This document shows, piece after piece, positions 1,264 to 20,838 of a DNA stretch of 64,000 nucleotides (within the stretch, counting starts at the first letter, position 1; the number at the start of each line of letters is the position of its first letter). The DNA is taken from the NCBI GenBank assembly GCA_030604735.1, contig JAUVVG010000001.1, positions 160,367-224,366 on the forward strand, in the 5' to 3' direction. Source of the stretch: Azoarcus sp. Its GTDB lineage: Bacteria > Pseudomonadota > Gammaproteobacteria > Burkholderiales > Rhodocyclaceae. The notes beneath the pieces were generated by a model that was not told where the DNA came from, did no database searches, and saw only the letters and a program-made list of their open reading frames with translations. Made by a program: the position numbers and the translations under genes.

Positions 1264-3930
1264 ATGCAAGTCAGTCGTCGTGAATTTCTCAAGTCGACCG
1301 CAGCCATCGCCGTCGCAACCGGTGGGCTGAAGATCTTCGGTGTCAACGAAGTCTTTGGTGCCGACACCGTGCTGATTCCGCACGCTTCGCACTACGGCCC
1401 TTTCCTGGCCGTGGTGAAGAATGGCATTCTGGTCGGGGTGCAGCCGCGCAAGGAGTTCGATGCGATGCCGACCCAGATGCTGATCGACGGCATCCTCAGC
1501 CGCACCTATCACCCGACCCGGGTACAGGGGCCGATGGTGCGTCGCTCCTACCTCGCCAATCCGCGCGGTGACACCAAGCCGCATCTGCGCGGTCAGGAAC
1601 CCTTCGTCCGCGTAAGCTGGGACGAGGCGCTGGCGCTGGTGGCCGACGCGACCTTGCGCACCATCGAGGAGCATGGCAACGATGCGGTGTTCAGCTCGTC
1701 CTACGGCGGCTGGTCGCATGCCGGCGTGCTCCGCCCGCAGGTGCTGCAGGGGCGCCTTTTCGGCCTGATCGGCGGACACAGCGTGACCACCGGTGACTAT
1801 TCCGGTGGTGCCTCGCAGGTCAGCCTGCCGCACATCATCGGCGACATGGAGGTGTATTCGCCGCAAACCGCTTGGGAAGTCGTGCGCGAGCACACCGAGG
1901 TGTTCGTGCTGGTCGGCTGCGATCCGTGGAAGAACAACCGCATCGAATACACCGTGGCCGACCACCAGATGTACCCGCGCTGGCAGGCGATCCGCGACGC
2001 CGGCGTGAAGTTCATCGCCATCGATCCGCAGCGCACCACCACCGCCGAAGCGATGAACGCCGACTGGGTGAAGATCGTGCCCAACACCGACACCGCGCTG
2101 TTCCTCGCGATGTGCTGGCATGTCTACACCACCGGCAAGTACGACCAGGCCTACCTGGACAAATACACCGTCGGTTTCGAGCGCTTCCTGCCCTATCTGC
2201 TCGGCCAGGATGCGGACGGCACCCCGCCCAAGACCCCTGAATGGGCGGCTGCGATCACCGGCATTCCCGCCGCGAAGATCGTCGAACTGGCCGATCTCTT
2301 CGCCAGCAAGCGCACCCAGTTCGCCGGCGCCTGGTCGCTGCAGCGCGCCCACCACGGCGAGATGAGCCACTGGGCCATCATCGCCTTCGCTGCGATGACC
2401 GGCAAGATCGGCAAGCCGGGGCAGGGCGTGGGCTTCAGCTGGCATTATGGCGGTGGCGGTATGCCGGTTTCCGGCAAGCGCGGCGCGGTAGGCATCTCGC
2501 AGGGCCGCAACCCGGCCAAGGGACGCTGTCCCGCGTCGCGGATATCGGAAATGTTGCTCAATCCGGGCAAGGCCTTCACCCGCGATGGTACGACGCTGAC
2601 CTATCCCGATGTGCACATGATCTATAACGCCGGCAACAACTTCGTCCATCACCAGCAGAACACCAACGAGCTGATCGAGGCGATGGCGAAGAAGGTACAC
2701 ACCGTGGTCAACCAGGACCCGTGGTGGTGTGCCTCGTCGCGCTACGCCGATATCGTGCTGGCCGCGACGACTACGCTCGAGCGCGACGACATCAGCTCCG
2801 GCGGCACCTACAGTAACGACAAGATCTGGGCGATGCGCCAGGTCATCCAGCCTTACGGGGACAGCCTCGACGACTTCGAGATCTTCCGTCGCCTGGCGGG
2901 TCTGCTCGGGGTCGAGTACGGCTTCACCGAGGGTCTGACGATGATGGACATCGTCAAGAACAGCTACGCCAATACCGACGCGGCCATCCCGTTCGAGACC
3001 TTCTGGGAAGCCGGCGTGGCCGAGATGGAAGTGCCAACCGAGGCGCGCTTGTGGGTTCGCCACGGCGACTTCTACACCGACCCGGAGAAGAGCCCGCTGC
3101 ACACCGAGTCCGGCAAGATCGAACTCTTCTGCGAAGCCTTCGAGCGCTTCGGCACCCAGGAATGCCCGCCGATTCCGAAGTATCTCGAACCGGTGGAGTT
3201 CCTCGGCAACGCCAAGCCCGGACAGTTGCACGTGGTGAGCCCGCACCCCTACATGCGCGTGCATTCGCAGATGGCCAACGCTTCGGTCGCGGACGAACTG
3301 AACATCCAGGGTCGCGAGTTCGCCTTCGTCAATACCGAGGATGCGCGGGAGCGCGGTGTCAAGGATGGCGACCTGATCGAGGTCTTCAACGATCGTGGCT
3401 CGATCATCGTCGGCGCACGGGTCACCGACAACATCATGAAGGGCGTGCTCAGCATCTACGAGGGGGCCTGGTTGTCCAAGGACAGCAAGGGTCGCTGCAA
3501 CAGCGGGGCGGTCAACATGCTGACCACCAGCGTGGCCTCGAGCGACCTGAGCCAGGCGACCAGCGCCAACACCTGCCTCGCATCGTTCCGCAAGTGCACC
3601 GACGCGGACGGCCCCAACCGTGCCTACGAGCCACCTCCGGTCGAAACCCTCGCCCATGTCGAGCTCGACGTCGCGGCAATGAAGCTCGTGGAGCGTGCCT
3701 ACGAGGCCAGAACCGCCGCCACGGCGACCATGACCCCGGGTGAGCGCCTGTTCTACAACAACTGCACGCTATGCCACGTGCCTCGCGAACCGAGTGAATT
3801 CACGACGCGGCAATGGCATGGCATCACCGAGAGCATGTTCCCGAGAACCGGTCTGACCGAGGAAGAGCGCAAGCTGGTGCTCGAATTCCTCGAACAGAAC
3901 GCCAAGGATGCAGTGAAAACGGCAATCTGA
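1264..3930 (+). CDS. torA: TorA-type TMAO reductase fused to a C-terminal haem c domain
   Basis: A periplasmic molybdopterin oxidoreductase of the DMSO/TMAO reductase family, expected to reduce trimethylamine N-oxide (or a related S- or N-oxide) as terminal electron acceptor. A Tat signal is clear: twin arginines at 5-6 in SRREFLK, a hydrophobic stretch, and likely cleavage after VFGA (about residue 33). Ser180, in the YSGGAS context, matches the serine that ligates molybdenum in this family. Residues to about 800 align with full-length TorA. The last 70 or so residues carry a CTLCH haem-binding motif (834-838) in a domain resembling the C-terminal monohaem domain of TorC. E. coli TorA is about 850 residues and has no haem. 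AAGGAG precedes the ATG. TorT, TorS and TorR homologues lie next door. The true substrate (TMAO, DMSO or biotin sulfoxide) is not fixed by sequence. Confidence 0.88.
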   Translation: MQVSRREFLKSTAAIAVATGGLKIFGVNEVFGADTVLIPHASHYGPFLAVVKNGILVGVQPRKEFDAMPTQMLIDGILSRTYHPTRVQGPMVRRSYLANPRGDTKPHLRGQEPFVRVSWDEALALVADATLRTIEEHGNDAVFSSSYGGWSHAGVLRPQVLQGRLFGLIGGHSVTTGDYSGGASQVSLPHIIGDMEVYSPQTAWEVVREHTEVFVLVGCDPWKNNRIEYTVADHQMYPRWQAIRDAGVKFIAIDPQRTTTAEAMNADWVKIVPNTDTALFLAMCWHVYTTGKYDQAYLDKYTVGFERFLPYLLGQDADGTPPKTPEWAAAITGIPAAKIVELADLFASKRTQFAGAWSLQRAHHGEMSHWAIIAFAAMTGKIGKPGQGVGFSWHYGGGGMPVSGKRGAVGISQGRNPAKGRCPASRISEMLLNPGKAFTRDGTTLTYPDVHMIYNAGNNFVHHQQNTNELIEAMAKKVHTVVNQDPWWCASSRYADIVLAATTTLERDDISSGGTYSNDKIWAMRQVIQPYGDSLDDFEIFRRLAGLLGVEYGFTEGLTMMDIVKNSYANTDAAIPFETFWEAGVAEMEVPTEARLWVRHGDFYTDPEKSPLHTESGKIELFCEAFERFGTQECPPIPKYLEPVEFLGNAKPGQLHVVSPHPYMRVHSQMANASVADELNIQGREFAFVNTEDARERGVKDGDLIEVFNDRGSIIVGARVTDNIMKGVLSIYEGAWLSKDSKGRCNSGAVNMLTTSVASSDLSQATSANTCLASFRKCTDADGPNRAYEPPPVETLAHVELDVAAMKLVERAYEARTAATATMTPGERLFYNNCTLCHVPREPSEFTTRQWHGITESMFPRTGLTEEERKLVLEFLEQNAKDAVKTAI

Positions 3931-14873: not shown

Positions 14874-15206
14874 ATGGACGTCCAGGCATTCATCCGCGAG
14901 CAGGTCACCACCCACCCGGTCGTGCTGTTCATGAAAGGCACCCCGCAGTTTCCCCAATGCGGTTTTTCGGCGACAGTCGTACAACTCCTGAAGCAGGCCG
15001 GGGTCAAGCAGGTCGCCGCGATGAACGTCCTCGAAAGCGACGATTTGCGCCAGGGTATCAAGGAATACGCCAACTGGCCGACTATCCCGCAGTTGTACAT
15101 CAACGGTGAGTTCGTCGGCGGCTGTGACATCGTCAAGGAGATGTTCGAAAGCGGCGAGTTGCAGCAGATGCTGGCTGCTGCCGGTGTGAGTGGCCCGGCC
15201 GCCTGA
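14874..15206 (+). CDS. grxD: Monothiol glutaredoxin (Grx4 type)
   Basis: A 110-residue CGFS-type glutaredoxin. Cys29 lies in QCGFSATV, and the glutathione-binding elements [16 protein letters not shown] and GGCDIV are present. Such proteins bind a [2Fe-2S] cluster with glutathione (often with BolA) and take part in Fe-S trafficking and iron sensing, unlike dithiol glutaredoxins, which mainly reduce disulfides. It ends the hemA-prfA-prmC run, as in many betaproteobacteria. Confidence 0.95.
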
Positions 15207-15265
15207 TTGCATCCGCGTCAGTCGTGCTCTTTATCGGGCAGGGGGCCGAGCATGGACAACGCAGC

Positions 15266-15493
15266 TCAGCCTCGAAGGTTCGAGCCGTTTTCGTTTCGGT
15301 TGCCCGTAATAAGGTGTAGTTTGAGAAAACAGCCTGAAACGATCAGAGCGATGCCGCCGATAAAAACCGTCGAAACGGGCACGCCGATCACGTAATAGTA
15401 TCCGGCCAGTCTTAGCATCACCGTCGCCAGACAGACGAACATGCCAGCAAGACCCATTGCAGTCGCGCAAGCGTTAATGATTCCGGATTTCAT
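15266..15493 (-). CDS. Small two-helix membrane protein, unknown
   Basis: A 75-residue protein with two hydrophobic segments (about 4-27 and 32-57) and a short polar tail. The ATG at 15493 has GGAGGG about four bases upstream, which is a good start signal. No family is recognised. It stands alone on the minus strand between grxD and the HPr-rel-A island, with its 5' end facing the AT-rich intergenic region. It is likely an inner-membrane protein; nothing more can be said. Confidence 0.55.
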   Translation of the reverse strand: MKSGIINACATAMGLAGMFVCLATVMLRLAGYYYVIGVPVSTVFIGGIALIVSGCFLKLHLITGNRNENGSNLRG

Positions 15494-15852
15494 CTGCCCT
15501 CCACCAGGATCGCACTCCTCGCCGAACTCAGGGCAAAAGAGGTTTGTCCGAAGCGATATTATGCGCTCACCGTGATGGATGTCACGAGGCTATATTGCTG
15601 CCATCGTATAATCAAAAGCGAACAATAGTCTGACGTCAGCGCCCGACTGTCGGTTTTTTTTACAGTTGGCGACAGTCTGGTGTGGGGTCAGTACTTAAGT
15701 CTTGTCTAAGTGCTTGAGGTTTAGATTGTTTGGCCATTGTGTTGCCAGGTGGTTCGGTTCTTGCTTATATAGCACTGACCAGATCGATCGGAATCCTCTT
15801 CCGCCCCGGCGTCACGTTTGATAACAGAGGATTGCGGATAAGGAAGCTTCCA
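15494..15852. other. 359-bp AT-richer gap before the HPr-rel-A island
   Basis: No gene is evident. The stretch is clearly lower in GC than its flanks. It contains TATAAT at 15607-15612, the palindrome TGACGTCA at 15631-15638 and an 8-bp inverted repeat around a T8 run at 15645-15677. It probably carries the promoter and control sites of the island that starts at 15853. Confidence 0.5.
15645..15677. promoter_or_regulatory. Inverted repeat with T8 loop
   Basis: GACTGTCG (15645-15652) and CGACAGTC (15670-15677) are exact inverted copies; the 17-base loop holds eight consecutive T residues. A smaller hairpin, CCGA-CTG-TCGG, sits directly before the T run and could act as a weak terminator. The alternatives pairings suggest a control element for the genes downstream, though this is inference. 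Confidence 0.4.
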
Positions 15853-16374
15853 ATGTCCAACCTAGTATCGGAACGAACCAAACAGCGACGACGGATCTTA
15901 CGGGCGGCCGTAGGCACTCCTTTAGTATTCTCGTTACCTAGCGGTGCTGCGATCGCCGATACAAGTTTGAGTTGCAAAGTTAAGAGCCATAGTTTGGCGA
16001 CGTCGGAGCCAGCATTAGGAGCGACGTCGTCGCCAGATAAGTGGGTGCGTTTTGAAGTATCTGCTTATCGGATAAATCAACCGGGAGGGCACGTTCGAGG
16101 ATTTAAACTGAATGATGGTCTCCAGGACTCTTGGTATCGCGTGAACAACGATGGTACTGTGTCCAACATCACGCCGAATGGAAATGCGGTGGAACAGTCG
16201 GAAAAGTTTTATCTTTTAGTCGATTACGATTCGTATATTGCGAACAAGACCAACCCGATCATGTATGTATATAAGGGAGGGGACGGAATTAGTAGTCCCA
16301 TTGCAGGCACATCTTGTTGGAACTCCATTAGTATTTTAGGCGACGAAATACTTTCGACCGTGATTAGAGGTTAA
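15853..16374 (+). CDS. Exported protein of unknown function, HPr-rel-A island
   Basis: A 173-residue protein with an N-terminal export-type signal: basic KQRRRILRAA, a short hydrophobic stretch and a cleavage-like AIADT near residue 25. The RRR could allow Tat export, though the hydrophobic part is weak. The mature part has no family I recognise. It contains only two cysteines (in LSCKV and TSCWN) and many Ser, Thr, Asn and Tyr. ATG 15853 follows AAGGA; an in-frame ATG at 15730 would add 41 unlikely residues. Base composition and codon choice are visibly AT-richer than the flanks, pointing to transfer or fast evolution. Only 16 bases separate it from the PqqD-like gene, so I suggest it is the substrate or cargo of that island, without proof. 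Confidence 0.65.
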   Translation: MSNLVSERTKQRRRILRAAVGTPLVFSLPSGAAIADTSLSCKVKSHSLATSEPALGATSSPDKWVRFEVSAYRINQPGGHVRGFKLNDGLQDSWYRVNNDGTVSNITPNGNAVEQSEKFYLLVDYDSYIANKTNPIMYVYKGGDGISSPIAGTSCWNSISILGDEILSTVIRG

Positions 16375-16390
16375 TGAGCATACGCTGACA

Positions 16391-16648
16391 ATGAGTCTTG
16401 CTTTGCTTGATGTGCGGCGTCTCGGTGACGCCGCAGTCGTTTTCGACGGCCGAACTTGGCAGACCCACCTTTTACCGCCTGCCGCTGCTGTCGTCGCCGA
16501 TTTGATAGAAGAGCTCAACGAGCAGGGTCCATTTACCCAAGAGCAACTCGAATCGGCGGTTCGTGTTGATCTGGAACTGGATCCAGGCACTCCCGAGATG
16601 AGAGACTTGTTCCGTATGTTCAAGGACATCGGGCTGCTCGGCGAATGA
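16391..16648 (+). CDS. HPr-rel-A system PqqD-family peptide chaperone
   Basis: An 85-residue PqqD-like protein. PqqD folds are RiPP recognition elements that bind the leader of a precursor peptide and hand it to a modifying enzyme. The size and the conserved shape (a beta-hairpin start DAAVVFDGRTWQTHLLPP, a helix VVADLIEELNEQGPFT, and a C-terminal helix MRDLFRMFKDIGLL) fit the family found with HprK-related kinase A. Its stop overlaps the kinase start as ATGA, so the two are translationally coupled. No pyrroloquinoline quinone genes are nearby, so a role in PQQ synthesis is excluded here. Confidence 0.8.
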   Translation: MSLALLDVRRLGDAAVVFDGRTWQTHLLPPAAAVVADLIEELNEQGPFTQEQLESAVRVDLELDPGTPEMRDLFRMFKDIGLLGE

Positions 16649-17586
16649 TTCCCTCCTCCGGTGGATTGATAGCATCCCGTTCGGATGCCGAACTGAACTC
16701 GGCGCTTGGAGGCGACGGTTGCTTCGTTGACTACGGCGCCTGCGTGGTGCGGGTCCGGTCTGTGGCGCATCCCTTCACCGATCTGCTGCGTCGGGTTTAT
16801 GGCGCGTTTCCACTCCAAGCGTCGGCCGAGTTCGCCGATTTTCATGTTGAACTGGTGCCTGGCAAGGGTGTGCGGCGATGGTTGCGGCCGACTGCTCGTT
16901 TCCGTATCGACGGGGTCGAACCGTTCGAACCGTTTCCGGCGACCAGCACGCTGCCCTTGTTCGAATGGGGAGTGAATTGGTGTTTCGGCCAACGTTTCAA
17001 CCAGCATGTGCTGCTCCATGCCGGCACACTGGCGATCGGCGAGCGCGCGGTCGTGATGCCGGCGGTGCCCGGATCCGGGAAGAGCACCTTGTCGGCAGCG
17101 ATGATGTTGCGCGGGTTTCGCCTGCTGTCCGATGAATTCGGGGTGCTGAAGCCGGAAACCGGTGAGTTGCTGGCGATGTTGAAGCCGGTGGCGCTGAAGA
17201 ATCAGTCGATTGGAGTGATCCGCGCCTTTTCCGGTGACGCCGTGCTGGGTCCGGTCTTTCCAGAGACGCGCAAGGGCGATGTCGCCCATCTCGCCCCGGA
17301 CTTGGCGAGCGTGTCGGCGATACACCAGCCTGCACGTCCCGCACTCGTCATTTTTCCGCGTTACGTCGAAGGTAGCGATCTGGAAGTGACGCCTCAGCCG
17401 CCCGAACAGGCGTTCGCCCGGCTTGCATTCAACAGTTTCAACTATGCGCTGCTCGGGCCGGTTTCGTTTCACGCGGTTGCGGATGTAGCGGAATCCTGTC
17501 CCGGCTATGCTCTGCGTTACAGTCGCCTCGACGAAGCCATAGACTGTATCGTTAGTCTGCTGGAAGACACGCGGGGGCCGCGGTGA
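16645..17586 (+). CDS. HprK-related kinase A
   Basis: A 313-residue P-loop protein related to the catalytic domain of HPr kinase/phosphorylase. The Walker A sequence VPGSGKST ends at residue 148 (G143-T148), followed by LLSDEFGVL, which resembles the acidic segment after the P-loop in HprK. There is no N-terminal HprK domain and no HPr or PTS gene nearby, so classical carbon-catabolite control is unlikely. In lasso-peptide clusters, related kinases phosphorylate the precursor peptide. The gene overlaps both neighbours (ATGA before it, TGATG after it), so all three are produced together. The substrate is unknown; the exported protein encoded at 15853 is a candidate. Confidence 0.82.
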   Translation: MIPSSGGLIASRSDAELNSALGGDGCFVDYGACVVRVRSVAHPFTDLLRRVYGAFPLQASAEFADFHVELVPGKGVRRWLRPTARFRIDGVEPFEPFPATSTLPLFEWGVNWCFGQRFNQHVLLHAGTLAIGERAVVMPAVPGSGKSTLSAAMMLRGFRLLSDEFGVLKPETGELLAMLKPVALKNQSIGVIRAFSGDAVLGPVFPETRKGDVAHLAPDLASVSAIHQPARPALVIFPRYVEGSDLEVTPQPPEQAFARLAFNSFNYALLGPVSFHAVADVAESCPGYALRYSRLDEAIDCIVSLLEDTRGPR

Positions 17587-18689
17587 TGCGCTTGCGAAGC
17601 AAGGGACGCGAGGTGGAAGCGCATCTGTTGCCCCTGCTCAGGGACATCGCCCATGCCGACACAATGACGCTGGCCGATTGGGATGCGACCTTGCGTCTGG
17701 CGCGCCTGGCACGGGTGCTGGGTGTGCTTGCACACCGGATTCGTAGCGATCAGTCACGCTGGGCGCGAGTTCCCGAGCCTGTCAGGGGCCACTTGCGAGC
17801 ATCGATCAATTATGCAGCCCATCGCGCCCAGATGGTCAGGATGGAGCTGGCTGCGCTGGACCGGGCCTTGCCGGCGGACATGCAGGTCATCGTACTCAAG
17901 GGGGCCGCTTATCAGCTTCAGGGGGTGCCGATTGCCCAAGGGCGCAGTCCGAACGACGTCGATCTGCTGGTCGCGCGCGCGGACCTCGACCGGGCCGAGT
18001 CAGTGTTGAACCAGGCCGGCTGGGTCTCGGAGGTCAGGGATGACTACGACCAGCGCTACTACCGCGAGTGGAGTCACGAGCTACCGCCGATGCGCTACCC
18101 AGGGCATGCGCTCGAAGTCGACTTGCACCATACGATAGCACCGGTGACGAGCCACGCCCGCGCCGATGACAGATTGCTGTTCGACGGGCTGGTGCTGATC
18201 CCCGGCTCTCGCTACTGGGCGCTCGACCCCTGTGATCAGATCATTCATGCGGCGGTGCACCTGTTCCAAGACTCGGAACTTGATGCACGGCTGCGTGATC
18301 TGGTCGATATCGATGGGTTGGTCCGTTTTCATCTTCGGGATGAGGGGACCTGGAACCGGCTGATCGAGCGGGCAGGGCGTCATGGAGCGACCCGGTTGCT
18401 TTGGTACGGACTGCATTACTGCAAGGCTTGGTTGGCAACGCCAGTGCCGGAGCGGGCATTGCGGCAGGCGCCGCCGCGTCGGGCGCAATGGGCGATGGAC
18501 TGGGTTTTCAGTCGCGCGACCTTGCCACGTTTACCCGATCGTCCGCCCGGCGCGATGGTCCGTCTTGCCGGGGCGTTGGGTCGGCTTCGCTATCACCTGC
18601 TGCGCATGCCGCCCGCGCTGCTGTTACGTCACCTCGCACACAAAACCTGGACGAGGCGTTTTGCCAGGCGCTCCGCTTCACCGCGATAA
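17586..18689 (+). CDS. Nucleotidyltransferase family protein (NTP_transf_5)
   Basis: A 367-residue protein of the NTP_transf_5 family. The catalytic pattern is visible: VIVLKGAAY, then GRSPNDVDLLV, the two-Asp metal-binding motif, then LEVDLHHTI with a third acidic residue. The C-terminal half is helical. Family members occur beside HprK-like kinases and PqqD-like proteins, including in lasso-peptide clusters, and may transfer a nucleotide to a peptide or small molecule. ATG 17586 overlaps the kinase stop by one base (GTG at 17583 is an alternative). The 3' end runs 61 bases into the convergent kinase gene on the other strand. Confidence 0.8.
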   Translation: MRLRSKGREVEAHLLPLLRDIAHADTMTLADWDATLRLARLARVLGVLAHRIRSDQSRWARVPEPVRGHLRASINYAAHRAQMVRMELAALDRALPADMQVIVLKGAAYQLQGVPIAQGRSPNDVDLLVARADLDRAESVLNQAGWVSEVRDDYDQRYYREWSHELPPMRYPGHALEVDLHHTIAPVTSHARADDRLLFDGLVLIPGSRYWALDPCDQIIHAAVHLFQDSELDARLRDLVDIDGLVRFHLRDEGTWNRLIERAGRHGATRLLWYGLHYCKAWLATPVPERALRQAPPRRAQWAMDWVFSRATLPRLPDRPPGAMVRLAGALGRLRYHLLRMPPALLLRHLAHKTWTRRFARRSASPR

Positions 18690-19552
18690 CCACGCCCAAA
18701 CAGGTTGAGGTGGTTGAGGATGTGATAAAGCCGGTAGAGCGGTTTGCGGTCTTCGCTGTCCTCGGCGGGGGGGTGCTGGCGGCGATATTCGGCGTAGAAG
18801 CTGGCCGGGAAGCCGCCGAACAACTCGGTCATCGCGAGGTCCGATTCGGGGTCGCCATGATGGACTGCCGGGTCGAATACGACTGGCGTGCCGGTGGGGT
18901 CGATTGCGGCGTTACCGTGCCACAGGTCGCCATGCAGCAGGGCGGCTGGTGGCCGATAGTCCAGGAATAGTGCCGGCACCCGGTCGAACAGCCTTAGGCC
19001 GAGTTGTTGCAGCTCGCCATCGAAACCCTTGAGTCGGGCGAGTGCGAACTGAGGCTTGAGCCGCTGTTCGACAAAAAATCGTGCCCAATTTGGTGATGGC
19101 GTATTGGTTTGCGGCGTCGCACCGATGAAGTTGTCACGCGGCCAGCCGAACGACTCGCCGATGCTGCGATGCATCTGTGCCAGCGCTTTGGCGAAGCGGG
19201 TGCCGTCGTCGGCGGTCGCGAGCGGGCGAAGTTCGAGGTGCTCCAGCACCAGCCAGGCCTGGTGTTCGTCTTCACCCAGGGTGATGAGTTTCGGAACCCG
19301 CAGCGTGCCAGTTCGATCGATCGCATCCAGGCCGTCGGCTTCGGCGGCAAACATCCCGGCGCTGGCGGGTGTTCCCAGTTTGACGAAATAGCGGGTTCTA
19401 CCGTCGCTCACGATCCGAGCGTCGTGAATGCAACCGCCCGAGACCGCAGCCGACTCGCGCAAGGTAAAGGCCTGGCCGGTCGCGGTGCGAATCGCGCTTT
19501 CGATGCTTGCCAGGGCCGTGCGCTCAGGGTCGGCTCTCGTGCCGGAGCTCAT
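18629..19552 (-). CDS. Fructosamine kinase family protein
   Basis: A 307-residue aminoglycoside-phosphotransferase-fold kinase of the fructosamine/ketosamine kinase family. Members phosphorylate sugar adducts on protein amines so that they fall off, which counts as protein deglycation. Visible motifs are the Lys in RYFVKLG (ATP binding), the hinge VLEHLEL, and the Brenner-type motif LLHGDLWHGN followed by VFDPAVHHGD. Its start overlaps the stop of the upstream Ser/Thr kinase by four bases (ATGA), so the two are coupled. Its 3' end overlaps the nucleotidyltransferase gene on the opposite strand by 61 bases. Confidence 0.88.
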   Translation of the reverse strand: MSSGTRADPERTALASIESAIRTATGQAFTLRESAAVSGGCIHDARIVSDGRTRYFVKLGTPASAGMFAAEADGLDAIDRTGTLRVPKLITLGEDEHQAWLVLEHLELRPLATADDGTRFAKALAQMHRSIGESFGWPRDNFIGATPQTNTPSPNWARFFVEQRLKPQFALARLKGFDGELQQLGLRLFDRVPALFLDYRPPAALLHGDLWHGNAAIDPTGTPVVFDPAVHHGDPESDLAMTELFGGFPASFYAEYRRQHPPAEDSEDRKPLYRLYHILNHLNLFGRGYRGEAERLAKRLVQVLCAR

Positions 19553-20838
19553 ACGCTGGCGATCCGCGTGTTCGCCAGCGACAGACGCGTGGACAACACT
19601 TCCAGAAAGGCCTTGTAGAAGTGCATGCGGCAGGTGTCCGAAGCGCGTTGCAGCGCGCCCGCGCTGATCCTCACCACGCTTGCCGGGGTGGCGGATTCGA
19701 CCGAGGCCGAGCGTACCCCGCCGCCGGCCGAGAACAAGGCCATCTCGCCGAAGCAGTCGCCGACGCCGAGCATGTTGAGCAGCTTGCCACGCTTCTTGAC
19801 CTTGGCTTCACCGTCGGCGAGAAAGCAGAAATGGTCGCCGGTATCGCCCTCGCGCATCAGGAGTGCGCCGGTTTCGACCCGCTCCCATTTGGAAAAGCCG
19901 ACGATTTCCCAAAGCTCGACATCGCTGAACTCGCGGAAGAAGTTCAGCTCGCGCAGGCGCTGGAAACGCTCGGTCTCCGGGATCGCGAGCGCCTCTATGG
20001 TCAGCGCCCGGTTCCGAAAAGCCTGGGCGAGGTCGTGCGAAAAATCGCTCCAGTCCTGATAGCGTTGATCGAGCTCCTTCTCCATCGCGCGCTGAACGAT
20101 CAGACTCAACGCTTCCGGCACCTCCGGCCGCAGTTCGGTGACAGGCGGCGGGGACTCATTGGCGATCCGGTAGAGCAGGCTGTAATGGGTTTCGCCTTCG
20201 AACGGGAGCTTGCCGGTCAGTAGCTGATACATCACCACGCCCAGCGAGTAGATGTCGGTGCGCTGGTCTACCGGCATCTCGCGGATCTGCTGCGGCGACA
20301 TGTAGGCCGGAGAGCCGACGCCGAGCACCTGGGTGGCATCGCTGGCCGAGTGGAAGGCGGCGCCGAAATCGGACAGCTTGATGTCCTGGCCATCCGGATC
20401 GACCAGCAGGATGTTGGCCGGTTTGATGTCGCGATGGGTGATGCCGTGGTGAAAGGCGTAGTCCAGCGCGCGGGTGCATTTGAAAATGATCTCGACGATG
20501 CGCGGGAAGGGCAGCAAGCGGTCCGGGCGGGTGAAGGCTTCCAGCGTGCCCCCCGGAACGTATTCCATCACGACATAGGCGTCGTCATCTTCGACCGAGG
20601 CGTCGTAGATCTGGGCGATGTGGGGGTGGTTCAGTTTGCCTGCCAGCGAGGCCTCGTTCATCAGCAGGTGTCGATACAGTCGTCCGCGCTCCGGGTCGTT
20701 CAGCATGTGCGGGTGAATCTGCTTGAGCGCGACCTCTCGCTGCGCAAAAGAGTCGTAGGCGAGATAGACGCGACTGGTGGCGCCCTCGCCGATCAGCCTT
20801 CTGATCTCGTATTTGCCGATCTTTTGCGCGGTCGACAT
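19549..20838 (-). CDS. Ser/Thr protein kinase with cyclic-nucleotide-binding domain
   Basis: A 429-residue cytosolic Hanks-type kinase. Residues about 9-270 form the kinase domain: glycine loop GEGATSRVYLA, Lys in EVALKQI, catalytic loop HRDIKPANILL, DFGAA, and the activation-segment end SPAYMSPQQI. Residues about 300-410 are a CRP-like cyclic-nucleotide-binding domain with a phosphate-binding cassette FGEMALFSAGGGVRSASV. No membrane anchor or PASTA repeats are present, unlike the common PknB type. The layout suggests a kinase switched by a bound nucleotide or another ligand. It lies 15 bases after argH and overlaps the fructosamine-kinase gene. Targets are unknown. Confidence 0.88.
   Translation of the reverse strand: MSTAQKIGKYEIRRLIGEGATSRVYLAYDSFAQREVALKQIHPHMLNDPERGRLYRHLLMNEASLAGKLNHPHIAQIYDASVEDDDAYVVMEYVPGGTLEAFTRPDRLLPFPRIVEIIFKCTRALDYAFHHGITHRDIKPANILLVDPDGQDIKLSDFGAAFHSASDATQVLGVGSPAYMSPQQIREMPVDQRTDIYSLGVVMYQLLTGKLPFEGETHYSLLYRIANESPPPVTELRPEVPEALSLIVQRAMEKELDQRYQDWSDFSHDLAQAFRNRALTIEALAIPETERFQRLRELNFFREFSDVELWEIVGFSKWERVETGALLMREGDTGDHFCFLADGEAKVKKRGKLLNMLGVGDCFGEMALFSAGGGVRSASVESATPASVVRISAGALQRASDTCRMHFYKAFLEVLSTRLSLANTRIASV

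Follow-up and report, generated by a model that had tools for sequence, protein, structure and literature searches.

We analysed a four-gene locus of Azoarcus sp. within a 64,000-nucleotide stretch of assembly GCA_030604735.1 (contig JAUVVG010000001.1, positions 160,367 to 224,366 of the forward strand), the whole of which is hereafter called the window. Four plus-strand open reading frames (ORFs) were confirmed at the coordinates in Table 1, and encode a candidate exported substrate, a PqqD-like protein, an HprK-related kinase and a nucleotidyltransferase. The original prediction, made from the letters of the DNA, had described the last three as a RiPP-recognition-like protein (RiPP, ribosomally synthesised and post-translationally modified peptide), an HPr-kinase-like enzyme and a nucleotidyltransferase overlapping at each joint. 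Profile searches bear this out: the PqqD-like protein scores 40.4 bits against TIGR04353 (cut-off 35), the kinase 371.2 bits against TIGR04352 (cut-off 200), and the third gene matches NTP_transf_5 (PF14907) at E 1.3e-50; the enzyme genes share four bases at both junctions (ATGA at 16645-16648, GTGA at 17583-17586). The upstream gene is AT-rich and spaced like an operon member, as had been claimed, with a GC content of 0.473 against 0.56-0.64 for the trio and 0.633 for the window, and a gap of 16 nucleotides, with no overlap, before the PqqD-like gene. We take its start to be the ATG at 15853; a program-made ORF list places it at the TTG at 15730. At E 0.1, neither Pfam nor NCBIfam has a family that matches its product. 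Neither a macrocyclase nor a B2-type peptidase was found among the seven window proteins scanned (14874-20838), in line with the earlier claim, with no genome-wide search for a cyclase, and the assembly, which is 95% complete, yields no Transglut_core3 (PF13471) match.

The trio is the HPr-rel-A system, which NCBIfam names and leaves functionally open. The window proteins lie over the cut-offs of both entries (TIGR04352/TIGR04353), which name the parts and whose one-line descriptions give no substrate. What is new is the partner gene beside the trio. A second trio, with its own leader-bearing upstream gene, lies on another contig of the same assembly, and the quartet is beyond chance, as it recurs in relatives; gene sets of this kind are carried by many proteobacteria.

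Table 1. Genes and sites of the cassette and its control region
Feature	Position	Strand	Notes
Box TGTCGGTTTTTTTTAC, likely enhancer site of a PrsR-type regulator	15648..15663	+	16/16 to consensus TGTCGGWTTTTTTTAC
Sigma-54 (-24/-12) promoter-like site TGGTTCGGTTCTTGCT	15750..15765	+	GG-N10-GC, 10/12 consensus letters
Candidate substrate, 173 aa	15853..16374	+	Twin-arginine-type leader at residues ~8-36, Cys41, C-terminal CWNS with Ser158
Codon of Ser158 (TCC), proposed acceptor	16324..16326	+	Sole invariant Ser of the type-A alignment
PqqD-like RRE protein (TIGR04353), 85 aa	16391..16648	+	Profile match; model with three strands, then three helices
HprK-related kinase A (TIGR04352), 313 aa	16645..17586	+	Profile match; catalytic residues invariant
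Nucleotidyltransferase NTP_transf_5 (PF14907), 368 aa	17583..18689	+	Pfam match; GRSPNDVDLLV stretch by eye

The profile of the PqqD-like protein matches the RiPP recognition elements (RREs) of lasso peptide systems, TbiB1 at E 4.4e-8 and TfuB1 at E 1.9e-6, better than it matches PqqD (E 0.22), and its structure model (pLDDT 87.8) finds TbiB1 as the best structural match (TM 0.71, prob 1.00, Foldseek E 4.8e-3). Profile and model together support a predicted RRE-type fold, a three-strand, three-helix winged helix like that of lasso B1 proteins, and thereby back the description of the protein as RiPP-recognition-like. In the kinase, His125, the P-loop Lys146, Asp163 and Glu164 are invariant across a 41-row alignment, a set close to the His-Lys-Asp-Asp set of the lasso kinases (PMC9266682). 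A defence system was considered and rejected, since PADLOC links the nucleotidyltransferase to AbiEii only weakly (best E 0.0011) and gives nothing else.

The leader-bearing partner gene

A first set of 79 distinct loci with an HprK match above 100 bits comprises the window, its second copy, 31 loci from a scan of genome contigs and 46 from a genome search; we excluded three duplicates and 11 loci whose kinase-like matches were weaker, and the set is not independent, with 12 loci named Accumulibacter and six Rheinheimera-type. A leader-bearing partner adjoins the cassette in all 79 loci, 77 of them by a leader profile that was seeded with 13 of the 79 and from which the leader counts are taken. 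The other two are L073, whose upstream protein keeps the type-B motif described below, is unmatched by the leader profile and was recognised by eye, and L051, where the leader ORF follows the trio on its downstream side. For a later test, a profile whose training set omitted the window and L002 was applied to 28 loci of a phylum-wide draw, and a leader-bearing partner was found in 25 of these (21 at 15 bits or more, the lowest at 17.9, and four more by pattern), including L166 with its leader gene on the opposite strand. The same search found no leader in L168, L169 and L175, which are also without a detected PqqD-like ORF. The top leader-profile score in 35 control loci was 14.3. The neighbourhood survey, put forward as a test that might refute the original prediction, did not refute it and found the upstream gene to be a regular companion of the trio, and the shared leader motif that had been predicted was recovered by the profile across loci.

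A nucleotidyltransferase is present in 79 of 79 first loci and a PqqD-like protein in 71. The Rheinheimera-type loci L028-L033 carry the leader protein, kinase and nucleotidyltransferase with no PqqD-like match, and at most a frame of 62-85 codons there. Among the 28 later loci the third gene encodes a nucleotidyltransferase in 14 and a TPR-sulfotransferase in seven, where it follows HprK_rel_A (L163, L164, L165, L173, L177, L178 and L179; called by PF13469 in L163, L164, L173 and L177 and by phmmer in the rest), and is unsettled in seven, partly on short stretches. One natural fusion joins an HprK-related kinase and NTP_transf_5 in a single 708-codon frame (L172:1438-3561).

Across the window's phylum, 51 of 299 sampled genomes hold an HPr-rel-A kinase over the cut-off. 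A single-sequence search with the substrate returned itself and one relative only. A search with the type-B profile found 53 proteins, of which the named ones are annotated as hypothetical and one has a Pfam domain (PF27764). That profile matches 39 of 41 cassette genomes, a figure that is partly by construction as many of the 41 supplied profile rows, and 10 of 328 others, the rarity there being the informative figure; four of the ten are matches to the SPGYWK-type domain alone. These genome scans scored the best six to eight first-look candidates per genome, so that absences are incomplete. The SPGYWK-type mature domain of type-B substrates occurs without a matched leader in G140, G144, G159 and G275.

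The window leader, QRRRILRAAVGTPLVFSLPSGAAIA, has Tat-type (twin-arginine translocation) features in RRRIL...GAAIAD, that is, a twin arginine, a hydrophobic stretch and a small-residue cleavage site. The RR pair is kept in 71 of 71 distinct first-set leaders, RRx[FLIVMWA] in 70 of the 71, and xxxPx[hydrophobic] occurs somewhere in 61 of them. The leader stands apart from generic Tat signals: two members withheld from training, though their relatives were not, score 36.2 and 37.5 bits against the leader profile, whereas 26 generic Tat candidates from the same genome (picked with PF10518 at E 10 or below, several of them clearly false) reach at most 17.7. NCBIfam formate_TAT gives weak matches to 12 of the 21 type-A members, the best at E 0.0081, and TatC is present in the assembly. 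It is therefore likely, as far as motif and profile can tell, that Tat is the export route of the candidate substrate, and the system would best be called a form of kinase/RRE peptide tailoring with leader and export signal in one. Elsewhere in the window, an 888-aa ORF at 1264-3930 (+) has a Pfam TAT_signal match over the cut-off (L127).

Short candidate precursors also bear a leader. Among the 328 genomes of the class in which no kinase passes the cut-off, six gave leader-bearing matches (type-B profile, at most eight candidates per genome). Five are clear, with frames of 63-106 codons and an SRRxF motif, and in each of these five genomes a related HprK that scores below the cut-off lies about 1 kb or less from at least one short frame; the sixth, G392, is weak and resembles an EF-hand protein by eye. 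L107 is a whole quartet, with PqqD (PF05402, E 1e-14), an HprK-like kinase, NTP_transf_5 (E 1.4e-44) and a 79-codon frame, and L109 holds PqqD, an HprK-like kinase and three short frames. In the DNA examined, no kinase accompanies two short frames on a separate contig of G419 or one in G346. Short leader-bearing frames without a kinase in the DNA examined stand at L108:3613-4516 and L111:169-375, which suggests precursors served in trans. All 11 short leaders read Y[VIT]AP[AV][IV] by eye, giving YxxPx[ILV] inside the leader, and this fits the published motif [Y/W]xxPx[L/V/I/A/F/Y] bound by the RREs of lasso peptides and of linear polyphosphorylated peptides (LPP) (PMC13381572). In the window's own kinase clade, the smallest members consist of little more than leader and acceptor motif: L087, a 74-aa precursor that keeps leader and Ser, ends AGSACISCNASLI, and L176 ends SASTQCDTATASCLDSFNGL.

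Proposed acceptor serine and kinase clade

The mature parts of the partner proteins are unlike one another, and it is the leader and a serine that are kept. In an alignment of 21 proteins of the window's type (type A), R12, R13, L28, C41, C155, W156 and S158 are invariant; Ser158, in the CWNS motif of a substrate that ends ...CWNSISILGDEILSTVIRG, is the one invariant Ser. The sister group, type B (31 proteins aligned), has invariant M1, R29, C56 and S63, with S59 and C74 nearly so. A C-terminal pattern, [STAG][CSA]xxS[FILMV] within the last 40 residues, was written after both sets had been seen and occurs in 30 of 30 distinct window-clade proteins and 23 of 23 later ones, against 0 of 47 distinct type-B proteins, where shuffling would give 1.9, 1.4 and 1.0; the 23 exclude L152 and L167, both of type B. 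The narrower [AS][CSA]xxS[LIVF], noted before the later draw, gives 25/30, 20/23 and 0/47, and all 23 later proteins carry C[WL]xS[FILV]. Of the clade's eight outlying members, five have another residue in place of the motif Cys and keep the Ser; Ser, not Cys, is therefore the constant residue. A C-x(2,3)-S site directly after the leader was dropped as a universal site, since that Ser is not kept in type A.

The kinases divide along the same line. In a first tree of 84 rows the type-A kinases form one clade (98/92), type A plus the outliers another (100/99), and the short-precursor kinases a third (100/100). An enlarged tree of 86 rows, from which 18 near-duplicates, five short-type rows and three rows without substrate are omitted, separates 42 C-terminal-motif from 44 N-terminal-motif kinases by one change (100/99, 200/200 bootstraps, the bootstrap not quite settled). 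The kinase clade, on these alignments and trees, goes with the type of acceptor motif.

Control region and exosortase setting

Upstream of the candidate substrate lie the box and the promoter-like site of Table 1, their starts separated by 102 nucleotides. The box sits within an inverted repeat (15645-15677), and a second GG-N10-GC match lies at 15731-15746. We compared 74 upstream regions (77 loci minus three with short or truncated upstream DNA, many being close relatives) with 2220 random stretches: the box TGTCGGWTTTTTTTAC occurs at 13/16 or better in 41 of the 74 against 3.6% of the random stretches, and a sigma-54 site at 10/12 or better in 41 of the 74 against 7.4%. In 38 of the 40 regions with a box and a site of 9 or more, the spacing is 67-104 nucleotides, mostly near 80, 91 and 102, values one helical turn apart. 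In the 4.06 Mb assembly the box (one mismatch at most) is found at five places and its reversed control at none; the five are the window, two positions before PEP-CTERM genes (by eye), one of which also has a sigma-54 site, and two without a clear gene.

A two-part region of this kind has been described before PEP-CTERM genes and tied to PrsR, PrsK and PrsT (Haft 2006, PMC1569441), whose logo includes the letters TTTACA, and an RpoN-dependent PEP-CTERM gene has been reported (PMC9850573). PrsR is present in the assembly (745.9 bits). An exosortase occurs in 38 of 41 cassette genomes against 89 of 328 others (p 1.6e-16), and in at least 10 of these 38 lies within 60 kb of the cassette on one contig; the two are far apart in G051, G302 and G309, and the assembly that holds the window has its exosortase on a different contig. 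Genes of the PrsK, PrsR, PrsT or EpsB type neighbour two cassettes. It is likely, from these sites and gene associations, that the operon is switched on by sigma-54 and PrsK/PrsR along with the exosortase/PEP-CTERM exopolysaccharide programme.

In the window itself, the genes flanking the cassette resemble housekeeping genes, partly by eye. A fructosamine-kinase-like gene adjoins three separate cassettes (window 18629-19552 (-), L002:11-220 and L118:5563-6456), called by a PF03881 match in the window and as look-alikes by eye in the other two.

A putative mechanism and its relation to known systems

We tentatively propose the following model for the HPr-rel-A cassette, and consider it reasonably probable that the operon makes a serine-modified exported protein by way of RRE, kinase, nucleotidyltransferase and Tat. 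The cytoplasmic RRE would hold the leader of the substrate, as first suggested for the PqqD-like protein, while the kinase would phosphorylate Ser158 of the C-terminal CWNS motif. The nucleotidyltransferase, or in some relatives a sulfotransferase as third enzyme, might then extend the phosphoserine. The modified product would be exported by the Tat pathway, and its leader removed by signal peptidase rather than by a dedicated peptidase. Modification before export is the more likely order, because the kinase needs ATP and ATP is presumably drawn from the cytoplasm. The modified protein probably belongs to the slime-matrix programme of the bacterium. In a broader form of this idea, which we find conceivable while leaning somewhat against it, RiPP-type tailoring has merged the leader with a Tat signal by setting the RRE motif in the hydrophobic core, a swappable third enzyme caps or links the phosphoserine, and modified matrix proteins are co-regulated with exosortase substrates across Pseudomonadota. 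If true, one peptide would both recruit a kinase and a transferase and deliver a finished, folded protein to the envelope.

Several observations weigh against this model. The kinase profile matches solved HprK weakly (E 0.011), the substrate structure model is poor at the C terminus and too poor for a fold search, and a PqqD-like protein is undetected in eight of the 79 first loci (the six Rheinheimera, L049 and L051; at L049 an ORF occupies the position). Type-A and type-B leaders lack the aromatic residue of the RRE motif and have small or aliphatic residues instead, and leader binding there must therefore differ. S or T precedes RR in just 25 of 71 leaders, so the Tat assignment is one of motif and profile; the Pfam TAT_signal model (21 positions) matches just one of 31 type-B members, at E 0.23, and six of the 77 leader-profile matches score 12-15 bits, within reach of the top generic Tat candidate, these six proteins all keeping an acceptor motif by eye. 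A FastTree run with a distant short-precursor outgroup, which carried the wrong (non-kinase) half of L172, put eight N-terminal-type kinases among the C-terminal-type ones (support 0.686). The agreement of substrate and kinase histories could also come from co-inheritance of linked genes, though linkage leaves unexplained the persistence of leader and acceptor motif in proteins that otherwise differ. Finally, LppN of the LPP systems discussed below was inactive in its host (PMC13381572).

The exosortase setting would also suit a product that is a matrix anchor rather than a decorated protein, the phosphoserine being an activated intermediate through which the third enzyme joins the protein covalently to an exopolysaccharide or glycolipid. 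The enrichment of exosortase in cassette genomes, the pairs within 60 kb, the PrsK, PrsR, PrsT or EpsB-type neighbours and the PEP-CTERM-type control region all agree with this, as does the need for PsmN in placing hexose on phosphoserine (PMC9266682). We nevertheless regard it as rather unlikely: no polysaccharide-transferring enzyme is constant in the cassette, and the TPR-sulfotransferases found as third gene suggest a cap rather than an anchor. HprK is classically a regulatory kinase, and the HprK-like enzyme might act on a cytoplasmic target with the PqqD-like protein as adaptor and the exported protein merely co-transcribed. Such a regulatory unit is improbable given that the partner keeps its leader and Ser while the rest diverges, that the kinase clade predicts the acceptor motif and that precursors of about 60-80 residues exist; an ordinary regulatory HprK was rejected on the ground that the acceptor motif of the adjacent gene tracks the kinase tree. 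Least credible is a plain Sec or Tat signal as the nature of the leader, with the likeness between loci stemming only from the descent of one secreted family. The weak matches of the Pfam and NCBIfam Tat models, and the six leaders that score no higher than generic Tat candidates, would fit this very improbable reading; the leader is constant on mature parts of unlike types, the 26 generic candidates stay at or below 17.7 bits, and the six genomes with leader matches and no over-cut-off kinase include five clear cases with a related kinase close by.

The proposed tailoring of an exported protein by the HPr-rel-A enzymes has its closest known precedent in the LPP systems of Bacillota (Popov et al. 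2026, PMC13381572), which combine a discrete RRE, an HprK-like kinase and an NTP transferase with no macrocyclase, as the window does. LPP precursors have 35-200 residues with a conserved N terminus and a variable rest, LppK phosphorylates one Ser of its precursor, and the clusters are often in or near capsular polysaccharide loci (PMC13381572). The cassette is not LPP by LPP's own defining features. LPP clusters carry an SpI-like leader peptidase and an MsbA-like exporter (PMC13381572), and neither turned up in the seven window proteins to which the search was confined. The LPP leader YxxPxVLxHQxIxFETxxS is not matched by the window leader, and the short relatives have YxxPx[ILV] alone. Unlike in LPP, the leader here appears to be itself a Tat-type export signal, and in the window's clade the serine proposed as acceptor has a C-terminal position; the hosts are Pseudomonadota rather than Bacillota, and the accessible LPP text contains neither 'twin-arginine' nor 'Proteobacteria' (PMC13381572). 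Within literature coverage that takes in few subscription papers, a search for HprK with RiPP and leader peptide found only PMC13381572, and none was found for HPr-rel-A or HprK-related kinase, or for HPr kinase with exosortase.

The tailoring of paeninodin and pseudomycoidin offers a second parallel, with a kinase of a C-terminal Ser, a later-acting nucleotidyltransferase homologue and a B1/RRE protein; PadeK phosphorylates the C-terminal Ser, and PsmN is required for the hexose on the phosphorylated residue (PMC9266682). A lasso cluster itself was rejected, with neither cyclase nor B2 peptidase among the scanned proteins and no PF13471 in the assembly, and the acceptors here, unlike those peptides, reach about 250 residues. 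SynChlorMet (ScmC/ScmD, TIGR04249/TIGR04248) likewise pairs an HprK-like with a PqqD-like protein and gives weak matches from the short-precursor cassettes, which score far below its cut-offs (at best 27/125 and 40/100 bits). PEP-CTERM proteins end in a C-terminal PEP, a transmembrane segment and a basic tail, and by sequence the candidate substrate lacks this tail. The two-part sigma-54 control region and the presence of PrsR are nonetheless shared with the PEP-CTERM/exosortase system (Haft 2006, PMC1569441). The proposal would supply the HPr-rel-A system with a substrate, a leader, one residue to mutate and a prediction from kinase clade to acceptor, making this long-open NCBIfam system directly testable. 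It would also connect the kinase-nucleotidyltransferase tailoring of Firmicute lasso peptides and LPP with entire exported proteins and with the PEP-CTERM/exosortase matrix programme.

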